DNA of 35,625 nt, from contig NZ_JAAHHW010000070.1 in NCBI RefSeq assembly GCF_010692325.1, positions 1 through 35,625 of the forward strand, given 5' to 3'. The position numbers and the translations under genes were made by a program. Below are positions 2,583 to 4,705 of the stretch, piece after piece (the stretch's first letter is position 1; each line of letters starts with the position of its first letter). Origin of the DNA: Moorena sp. SIO3I8. GTDB lineage: Bacteria; Cyanobacteriota; Cyanobacteriia; Cyanobacteriales; Coleofasciculaceae. A model generated the notes under the pieces. It was not told where the DNA came from and made no database searches. It saw nothing but the letters and a program-made list of their open reading frames with translations.

Positions 2583-2927
2583 ATGAGACCAACTCCTATC
2601 CCTCCAAAGCCAGGTCAAGAATCGGTTTGGGATTACCCCCGTCCCGCCCGATGGGAAGACATCAATAAACATATTAAGGTAATCTTTAATGGCATTGTTC
2701 TCGCAGAAACCCACAGACCTAAGCGAGTTTTGGAAACCAGTCATCCTCCGACTTATTACATTCCACCAGAAGATATCAAACTAGAATATCTGACAGAGAC
2801 ACCCCATAAAACCTTTTGCGAATGGAAAGGCAGGTGTTCGTATTACAATGTCTCGTTAGGTGAAAAACAAGCAACTCATGGAGCTTGGCGCTACCCCGAG
2901 CCAACCCCTGACTTTGTTTCCATCTGA
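2583..2927 (+). pseudogene. 5' part of a DUF427 gene, cut by the IscB element
   Basis: The 114 codons encode most of a DUF427 domain: WDYPRPARWE near the start, the strand VIFNGIVLAETHRPKRVLET, then PPTYYIPPEDI, FCEWKGRCSYYNV and AWRYPEPTPDF. The stop TGA 2925-2927 is supplied by inserted DNA. The remaining conserved part of the domain lies 1.6 kb downstream at 4553-4705. Without the insert, codon ATC/ATT (Ile) would join AAA GAA TAC in frame, giving a normal-looking protein of about 164 aa. DUF427 proteins are small, widespread and of unsettled function. The truncated product lacks the C-terminal motif and is probably non-functional. No strong ribosome-binding site precedes ATG 2583. Confidence 0.88.
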
Positions 2928-2930
2928 GAT

Positions 2931-2986
2931 GCGGCAAGGGGACTCCCGTTATACCCGGCACGGGTTAGCGGGAGGGGAATTGCCGC
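2931..2986. repeat. Subterminal hairpin at the iscB 3' end of the element
   Basis: Nested arms are visible: GCGGCAA (2931-2937) with TTGCCGC (2980-2986), CTCCCG (2943-2948) with CGGGAG (2969-2974), and CCCG (2954-2957) with CGGG (2961-2964) around GCA. The layout CTCCCG-TTATA-stem-TTAGCGG resembles the hairpin at 4511-4539 and the element at 31111-31199. It is probably the second transposon end; a terminator role for iscB is also possible. Confidence 0.65.
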
Positions 2987-3021
2987 CAACAAGTAAACTA
3001 CCCGATAGGGTATCCTTATTT

Positions 3022-4305
3022 TCAAGATTGATATTCATAGCCGTCAGCCTTGTGAATAGTTTTCAAGTATTTGGGATGTACGTCAAATTTTTGAGTTGGT
3101 AGTTGAAGGGTAAAGCTAGGTCTAAAGCGAATTGCAATACGTCCGACATATTGACCAGCAAACTTACCTTTGATGACATCAGCTTTAACAATATCACCTG
3201 TTTGAAAACCCTGAAAAAACTTAGCTTTTGGAGCGTGAGCTTTCGGAAACCCATATTTGTTAGGACGACAACGCTGCCTAGTTCCGTGTCCTTTAGCTGC
3301 AATTAACAGCGGTTTTATTCCCCTGATAAGTAGCCGCTCAGGTGTTGATTTACCAACACAAGAAGCATCAGTCCAATGGTGTTTTTCAATCATTCTGACC
3401 TTACGGTTAAATTTGGTCAGTCCCCCAGAACCTACTTCTACAGGTAACCCTGTTTCTTGAAGTCTTCTATACAATTCCCATCGGGTAGTATTAACCGCAG
3501 TCGCGTCTTTAAGTGAAGTCTTGGTTTTCCCCTTAATTTTCTTCAATAGTTCAGGCTTTTTACTTAAAAAATCTTCTACATATTTGTTACCTTTTTTCTG
3601 ATTACAAGGTCTACAAGCTAAGGTGAGATTGCTTACTCTGTTAGAACCTCCTTTTGATTTGGGGACAATGTGTTCTATTTCCAATGGGGTGTTTTCAGCG
3701 TTGCAGTAGACACATTTTCTCCCCCATTTGGCAAGCAAGTATTCCTTGACCTCAAAGCCGAATAACTCACCGCGTTGATATTCAACCTCGCTAATTTCAG
3801 GGTTTTGCATTTGCTGCAAATCAAACCTGACTAACTCTTGAGAAATAGCGCTAATCGGACAGACTTTTCTAATTCGTTTCACCCAAGTCTCAATATTGTT
3901 AATTCTGCTTTCAAGAGATGGGGGTAACCATCCTTGTCTACGAGTTCTGTTCAAAAAACGAGGTTTGCGATATCGAGTCTTACGGTTGCGTCTACCTCTC
4001 CTTAATGCCCTGCGAGAGTCTAGAGAATTCTTAATCTGTTGTCCCCTGTGAGATATTTCTAAGGCGCTTGTGACACGTCCTGTTTCTTCTTGAACAATAG
4101 CCATCCCGCTTGTTTTACTACCAGGGTCTATCTTTAAACGATGTGAATGAGTGACAGATTTTTCTAAAATCCTGTCTTTTAATACAATTGTAAATGGGTA
4201 CCGTTTAAATACTTTAGCCCTTCCCATGTTCAATAGCTCTCTTGCTCGTGCCGGATGGCATGGATCAAGAGGTTTCAAGTTTTTGTCTAGTACGAAAACT
4301 CGCAT
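3022..4305 (-). CDS. iscB: IscB, RNA-guided RuvC/HNH endonuclease
   Basis: The 427-residue product has the IscB domain order. An N-terminal PLMP-type domain (residues 1-45, motif KPLDPCHPAR, so PLDP replaces PLMP) comes first. RuvC-I follows (LKIDPGSKTSGMAI, Asp60), then an arginine-rich bridge helix (about 98-120), RuvC-II (SQELVRFD, Glu157), an HNH domain with zinc-type cysteines 198/201/231/234 and catalytic-type EIEHIVPKSKGG (His212), and RuvC-III (KHHWTDA, Asp313). All expected catalytic residues are present, so the nuclease may be active. Known relatives use an omega RNA to cleave DNA beside a short target-adjacent motif. I chose ATG 4305 because GAAAGGAGAG lies just upstream; the 22-codon extension to 4371 lacks family similarity and falls in the RNA region. 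An HNH-only homing enzyme or TnpB is excluded by the combined RuvC and HNH layout. Confidence 0.96.
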   Translation of the reverse strand: MRVFVLDKNLKPLDPCHPARARELLNMGRAKVFKRYPFTIVLKDRILEKSVTHSHRLKIDPGSKTSGMAIVQEETGRVTSALEISHRGQQIKNSLDSRRALRRGRRNRKTRYRKPRFLNRTRRQGWLPPSLESRINNIETWVKRIRKVCPISAISQELVRFDLQQMQNPEISEVEYQRGELFGFEVKEYLLAKWGRKCVYCNAENTPLEIEHIVPKSKGGSNRVSNLTLACRPCNQKKGNKYVEDFLSKKPELLKKIKGKTKTSLKDATAVNTTRWELYRRLQETGLPVEVGSGGLTKFNRKVRMIEKHHWTDASCVGKSTPERLLIRGIKPLLIAAKGHGTRQRCRPNKYGFPKAHAPKAKFFQGFQTGDIVKADVIKGKFAGQYVGRIAIRFRPSFTLQLPTQKFDVHPKYLKTIHKADGYEYQS

Positions 4306-4551
4306 TACTTTGAGTCTCTCCTTTCGGGTAAAGTTGGCCTCGACAATGTTATTTGAACTTGTTATGTACAACTCACTGGCTTAACTCGTTACACCTGTTT
4401 AAAGCTGTACGAAAGAGCTGAAAACTGGCACGCATTATCAGGTTTCATAATTCAAATAACGTAGGTTTCTCACGAACCTTAGTCTGGTCAAGTTAGAGCT
4501 TAAAACAAGCTCCCGCTATAGTTCGTTAGAACTTAGCGGCGAGTTCTTGAC
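4306..4551 (-). ncRNA. Putative HEARO / omega RNA of IscB
   Basis: This gene-free stretch directly upstream of iscB is where HEARO (HNH Endonuclease-Associated RNA and ORF) RNAs lie. Read on the minus strand, stems are visible: GTCAAG with CTTGAC (arms at 4546-4551 and 4487-4492), enclosing CCGCTA/TAGCGG (4534-4539 with 4513-4518) and GTTC/GAAC (4529-4532 with 4521-4524). A further AGGTT/AACCT hairpin occupies 4463-4479. The outer stem starts at the insertion edge, so bases 4552 upward (DUF427 sequence) would be the guide. The 3' limit is approximate because these RNAs can run to or into the iscB start. Assignment rests on position and fold, not on a covariance search. Confidence 0.8.
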
Positions 4552-4552
4552 T

Positions 4553-4705
4553 AAAGAATACTATGGCTTCTCTGCTCGTCTGATGGATGCCTGCTATGTA
4601 GATGATGAGTTAGTCACTCCCCAGCCTGGTGAATTTTATGGTGGCTGGATCACTAAGGATATTGTTGGACCTTTCAAGGGAGAACCAGGAACAATGGGTT
4701 GGTAG
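4553..4705 (+). pseudogene. 3' part of the split DUF427 gene
   Basis: Fifty codons plus TAG translate as KEYYGFSARLMDACYVDDEL, then VTPQPGEFYGGWITKDIVGP and a GTMGW ending. The run DACYVD, PQPG, FYGGWIT, VGPFKG is the conserved C-terminal half of DUF427 proteins and follows exactly from the 5' part at 2583-2924. There is no start codon or ribosome-binding site at the junction, so this fragment is unlikely to be translated alone. Its first bases are also the predicted guide source of the adjoining HEARO RNA. Confidence 0.88.

Follow-up and report, generated by a model that had tools for sequence, protein, structure and literature searches.

How a gene comes to be cut in two by a small mobile element with IscB, an RNA-guided nuclease of the family ancestral to Cas9, and whether its flanks still preserve the target that the element met on arrival, are questions raised by a DUF427 gene of the marine cyanobacterium Moorena sp. 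SIO3I8. The gene lies in a stretch of 35,625 nucleotides (the window) from a 7.99 Mb draft genome in 510 contigs (G000, contamination estimate 2.11), which we compared with three genomes of the same genus: G001, G002 (Moorena bouillonii PNG) and G003 (Moorena sp. SS36440bin_2). A PF04248 (DUF427) match at 2583–2924 on the plus strand (E 3.6e-32) covers profile positions 1–84 of 93, and the downstream half of the gene is found in an ORF at 4547–4705 on the same strand; with the ends of the insert fixed as described below, the two parts of the gene are 2583–2923 and 4552–4705. A first-pass annotation had proposed that an IscB element splits this gene and that its halves rejoin without missing residues. 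This is what we found: when joined, they yield a protein of 165 amino acids, all 165 of which align to intact genes of G002 and G003 without a gap at the FVSI–KEYY junction (80.6% and 81.2% identity, respectively). The joined protein also aligns to that of G004 (75.8% over 153 amino acids) and to those of more distant genomes. The search of related genomes suggested at the outset thus returned uninterrupted genes in a matching neighbourhood, with gene order the same on both sides of the locus in G002, and kept in G003 from DUF427 through ferrochelatase and three more genes; the two methyltransferase genes upstream in the window were not found in the G003 stretch taken. In the window itself, a methyltransferase-like ORF at 449–1000 ends just before a second ORF at 1014–1388, and the two are possibly one broken gene.

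DUF427 matches were present in 34 of the 37 genomes searched, the source genome included; no match was found in G005, in G036 or in G001, a genome of the genus itself, and only fragments are present in G016 and at one G003 locus. In the source genome the split gene is the single match, no second copy was found, and DUF427 is broken in this organism. The two halves belong to one orthologue rather than to different paralogues, yet, as we describe below, they match different lineages.

The insert occupies 2924–4551 (1628 nt) and holds iscB, on the minus strand, as its sole gene. The iscB gene encodes 427 amino acids from an ATG at 4305 (3022–4305; the ORF list also has a TTG start at 4371). The longer ORF matches NF040563 at 470.6 bits (cut-off 175), Pfam identifies the RRXRR and HNH families, and the relatives found in the PDB are IscB chains, with 9k30 the best (E 7.9e-40) and OgeuIscB (7xht) at E 1.1e-25. 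Stretches that we take to be the PLMP-like, RuvC-I, arginine-rich, RuvC-II, HNH and RuvC-III motifs were all located, and the nuclease is predicted to be catalytically complete, as had been claimed. Directly upstream of iscB, at 4328–4551 on the minus strand, lies a HEARO (omega) RNA scaffold that matches RF02033 over model positions 1–211 of 211 (138.4 bits). Each end of the element carries a subterminal hairpin. The one at the iscB-distal end (2931–2986, plus strand) folds as DNA at −19.5 kcal/mol (z −4.92), and the one at the other end, within the omega RNA (4513–4539, plus strand), belongs to a DNA fold of 4470–4551 at −17 kcal/mol (z −4.31); in either case none of 200 shuffles was as stable. 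Protein family, RNA family and fold statistics thus agree with the original description of the insert as iscB with an upstream HEARO RNA and end hairpins and, judged by its sequence, it is an intact IscB/HEARO insertion of a known kind. It lacks a Y1 transposase gene (tnpA) of its own, and we therefore call it non-autonomous.

The exact ends were fixed using natural empty sites available for four sister copies: C135 of the source genome (compared with G001, G002 and G003), C1 (with G001 and G002), C2 (with G001, G002 and G003) and one G001 copy (with G002). These four show insertion 3′ of NCAT, with no target duplication and no lost base. Filled sites read NCAT, then C...TTGAC, then flank, save that the C135 element ends in TTTAC; all filled sites have NCAT, as do 7 of the 9 empty ones, the two exceptions (TAAT in G001, TTAT in G003) both belonging to C135 and having changes beside the site. 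Applied to the window, this rule assigns base 2924 to the element and base 4552 to the host. The precise, scarless insertion first proposed therefore stands, but with coordinates shifted by one base: boundaries of 2925–4552 were rejected because the natural empty sites make the last base host DNA, and the same evidence led us to stop counting the variable base that precedes GTCAA as part of the element. The empty site of the window would then read CCAT followed by TAAAGAATAC, that is, CCAT and then TAAAG, encoding Phe-Val-Ser-Ile-Lys. The isoleucine at the junction is ATC or ATT by either boundary reading, so that the protein stays the same, and the corrected junction gives ATT, the codon of G002, G003, G015 and G019.

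The CCAT beside the element (2920–2923, plus strand) reads ATGG on the iscB strand. Of the 15 copies for which this end is available, 13 have ATGG immediately adjoining the element; the exceptions are L043 (TGGA) and L047, where it is shifted by one base (GATGG). The motif of the C135 copy is ATGA. ATGG has a measured frequency of 0.0046, which puts the chance of at least 13 of 15 at about 4.5e-29, although the copies are related by descent. From this we infer that ATGG is the expected target-adjacent motif of the window IscB. At the opposite end, the host DNA at 4552–4571 (minus strand; 20 nt shown, a putative length) adjoins the 5′ end of the omega RNA and, going by published OMEGA work, would be its guide.

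The same element recurs elsewhere in the genus. The search for further copies that had been suggested returned one full-length copy in the source genome, at another site and with 71% identity, and five copies at 90–99% in the same-genus genomes, likewise at other sites (98.5% and 95.5% in G001, 94.4% in G002, 94.7% and 89.7% in G003). Because iscB is only 1–5% from its nearest kin, the insertion is young. The dN/dS ratio between the window iscB and the four close copies free of stops is 0.28, 0.10, 0.15 and 0.11, and it is 0.47 for the fifth copy, whose match contains two stops. IscB genes above the cut-off are numerous in the genus, with 16 in the source genome, 34 in G001, 15 in G002 and 13 in G003, a total of 78 obtained from 80 rows by merging two split pairs by hand. 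Three further loci deserve mention in their own right. In G003 (L074, contig C373) an IscB element 95–97% identical to that of the window is itself split by about 1.6 kb at query position 160–169. At L275 (G000, contig C2, about 2801–2897) the terminal hairpin of the omega RNA end of an IscB copy contains an extra GC-rich palindrome, because of which the Rfam match ends about 50 nt before the true end. At L281 (G000, contig C27) RF00029, a group II intron domain, is matched at 1722–1799, near an IscB gene.

Which transposase could move such elements? No Y1 match lies within 4 kb of any of the 78 IscB starts in the four genomes, the nearest being 4471 nt away, in line with the published observation that few HEARO nucleases sit beside TnpA (PMC9755519). 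Y1 genes are nonetheless present in all four genomes (70 matches). We took the end sequences of the window element and L002 and compared them with 30 of these Y1 loci and with L077. The loci span 1.5 kb on each side, which placed some right ends outside; five elements were extended and their right ends then read. Matches to the ends of the window element and L002 were found at the left end only, where tnpA/tnpB elements share the hairpin of the window element: L077 and L117 at 92% over 52 nt and L113 at 89% over 46 nt, with shorter matches in L106 and L116. The L077 hairpin also folds alike. The tnpA/tnpB elements that share this hairpin are thus candidate helpers of the IscB element, although their right ends differ from its own. 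The shared hairpin is no proof of mobilisation, because its core (CTCCCGTTATACCCG...GGGTTAGCGGGAG) also recurs in scattered palindromic repeats of the source genome, several with a further GC-rich arm (L079 2572–2610, L080 77–115, L081 2529–2567, L082 2537–2574 and L083 2426–2464). In L106 and L116 an extra stretch inside the left hairpin resembles these repeats, as if the palindrome had grown or been inserted.

A helper of this kind would have to act at CCAT as well as at the CCAA found beside the tnpA/tnpB elements. It is possible that one transposase serves both, because IS608 recognises its target through a guide within the transposon DNA, and altering that guide redirects the element to a new target (PMC5934647). 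In the window, an ATG precedes the hairpin foot and might base-pair with the target's CAT; L002, L070, L071 and L072 have ATA at this position, and we take such pairing as a hint only.

The flanks of the insertion tell a different story from the one expected if the locus simply revealed the ancestral target. A divergent tract straddles the element, with a left portion at 2459–2923 (its left edge is uncertain, between about 2397 and 2459) and a right portion at 4552–4572. Together, these portions carry 103 mismatches to G002 over 486 positions, a count that takes in the boundary shift, which removes one mismatch of 104, at joined position 2924. G002 and G003 agree with one another at 95–97% over the tract. 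At the next 176 positions there is no mismatch to G002 and a number of mismatches to G003. Among the 300-nt blocks with enough aligned bases in 34 kb, the tract is the most divergent, at 0.737 to G002 and 0.757 to G003; other low blocks go down to 0.89 and 0.846, respectively. Near window position 2438, upstream of DUF427, G002 and G003 have about 700 nt that are absent from the window, and this difference coincides with the left edge of the tract.

Substitution rates divide in the same way. Left of the insertion dS is 1.06 for the comparison with G002 and 0.91 for that with G003, where the G002–G003 value is 0.135, and right of the tract it is 0.000 to G002 (over 4573–4702) and 0.074 to G003, with 0.074 between the two. 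One reading of this divergence invokes no imported tract and attributes it to the decay of a dead gene after insertion, as might be suspected for a gene that is interrupted and is the sole DUF427 found in its genome. With dS at 1.06 on the left, dN is only 0.137, so the changes there arose under constraint; the 3′ part of the gene and the flanks are nearly unchanged, and the iscB gene, at 1–5% from its nearest kin, points to a recent insertion. On the dS contrast we rejected decay, which is scarcely credible here.

The joined protein, the mismatch map and the dS values instead indicate that the 5′ part of the gene is a divergent allele and that, beyond the first 21 divergent nucleotides, the 3′ part belongs to the resident Moorena allele. 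The left part has its nearest relative in G019, a genome of another genus of the same family (84%), and a tree pairs the two at a weak support of 81/75; for the right part it is G002. A search of 388 genomes of the order, which sample a larger group and for each of which two candidates were scored, gave no left-tract donor above 84%, and the genomes searched held neither the same insertion nor an exact empty allele. The interrupted gene is a patchwork of two lineages, and its allele is not that of the close relatives. The idea that the locus simply gives the ancestral target was accordingly abandoned: resident Moorena alleles read CCGAT at this place, and the CCAT that they lack came with the foreign tract.

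Could the patchwork instead be an artefact, in which the assembler joined the element and left tract of one strain to the resident sequence of another? The genome is a draft in 510 contigs with a non-zero contamination estimate, and chimeric joins tend to occur in shared stretches. Two joins would be required, however, one near 2397–2459 and one just after 4572, both in register with a single gene, and the source genome contains neither a second DUF427 match nor a close second copy of the element (the next best is at 71%). We consider an assembly chimera improbable, and even in that case some strain would carry the insertion.

The position of the tract invites a further explanation, RNA-guided homing with co-conversion, in which IscB cut a recipient allele and repair copied the element together with about 490 nt of donor flank. 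Within the aligned portion of the 34 kb no other 300-nt stretch diverges as much from either relative as this tract, which lies across the insertion and stops 21 nt beyond the element, and homing has been proposed for the sister nuclease TnpB (PMC8612924). The resident alleles of G002 and G003, however, have ATCG rather than ATGG at the motif position, and 6 of the 20 guide positions are mismatched (4, 6, 10, 12, 14 and 19, counted from the motif). Because the motif is absent and the guide mismatched to this degree, a donor IscB is not expected to cut them, and the predicted motif and guide thus speak against homing into these two alleles. Elsewhere, the G019 allele has three guide mismatches but ATAG, and the alleles of G015 and G004 have ATGG, yet five and seven guide mismatches.

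If co-conversion were recurrent, similar tracts might mark other insertions. We looked for this pattern at four other insertion sites compared with relatives (one repeat-rich flank, one G002 site with only partial matches of 69–83% and four more copies in the source genome lay outside this control), and a divergent tract straddling the element was found at none of the four. At three of these sites similarity beside the element was 0.89–0.99 within 250 nt on the left and 0.90–1.00 within 100 nt on the right, and at C2 it was about 97–98% on the left and 94–98% over the first 46–47 nt on the right. Two sites do show some contrary signal, in that similarity falls to 0.77–0.88 at 100–250 nt on the right of C1 and to 0.87–0.89 beyond 250 nt on the right of the G001 copy, but in both the insertion itself is untouched. 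Plain recombination accounts for one locus equally well, and taken together we regard homing at this locus as unlikely.

The explanation that we prefer, and hold to be probable as a whole, is therefore one of transposition and recombination. A non-autonomous element of the IS200/IS605 type, made up of omega RNA and iscB with no transposase, inserted without duplicating its target, 3′ of a CCAT in the sense strand of DUF427, as its anatomy and the empty sites of its sister copies show. A Y1 transposase acting in trans would move it by single-strand peel-and-paste, and the omega RNA would take its guide from the adjoining host DNA, from 4552 rightwards on the minus strand. IscB would then be expected to cut element-free copies beside ATGG, with repair restoring the element, by extension from published work on TnpB and IscB; for TnpB, the cutting of the empty site and its restoration by repair are proposed in PMC8612924. 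The divergent tract of about 490 nt, which reaches 21 nt past the element, would have entered from a divergent lineage by homologous recombination, with the element already inside it or shortly before the element inserted. For this one locus, either the foreign allele was recombined in with IscB already in place, or the element hit an imported allele; the short distance of 21 nt between the element and the right tract edge speaks mildly for the two having arrived together.

For several IscB copies, Moorena genomes thus contain natural empty sites that fix the ends of the element to the base. These sites also give a new IscB a target and a target-adjacent motif that can be put to the test, and the left-end hairpin in common with tnpA/tnpB elements points to a concrete candidate transposase for elements that have none. 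In the mosaic allele, where an RNA-guided element sits within recombined DNA, one can ask whether IscB elements cross between lineages through transposition, plain recombination or guided homing. Should homing from a divergent cyanobacterium prove true, the tract would be a natural co-conversion tract, and relatives of Cas9 would spread between lineages as allele replacers, beyond transposition.

Finally, how does this element compare with known systems? It resembles described IscB/HEARO elements (OMEGA; ISC transposons of the IS200/IS605 superfamily) in its motif-complete iscB with a HEARO RNA directly upstream, in its duplication-free insertion and in the position of the motif at the end opposite the RNA. 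There is no categorical difference from these; the particulars here are the motif, ATGG or ATGA, and an interrupted gene that is a mosaic of two lineages. With IS608 and ISDra2, as presented in PMC5934647 and PMC8612924, it shares insertion 3′ of a short target that is kept in the flank, subterminal hairpins and the lack of a duplication. Those elements, however, target TTAC or TTGAT and carry tnpB, whereas elements of the window type use CCAT or TCAT and carry iscB with no tnpA; relative to the target, the RNA and guide of the window element also lie at the opposite end. The tnpA/tnpB elements of the same genomes (L077, L117, L113, L106 and L116) are like it in the left-end hairpin, but differ in having CCAA rather than CCAT in the flank, a different right hairpin ending in GTCAC and, as seen for L077, both tnpA and tnpB.
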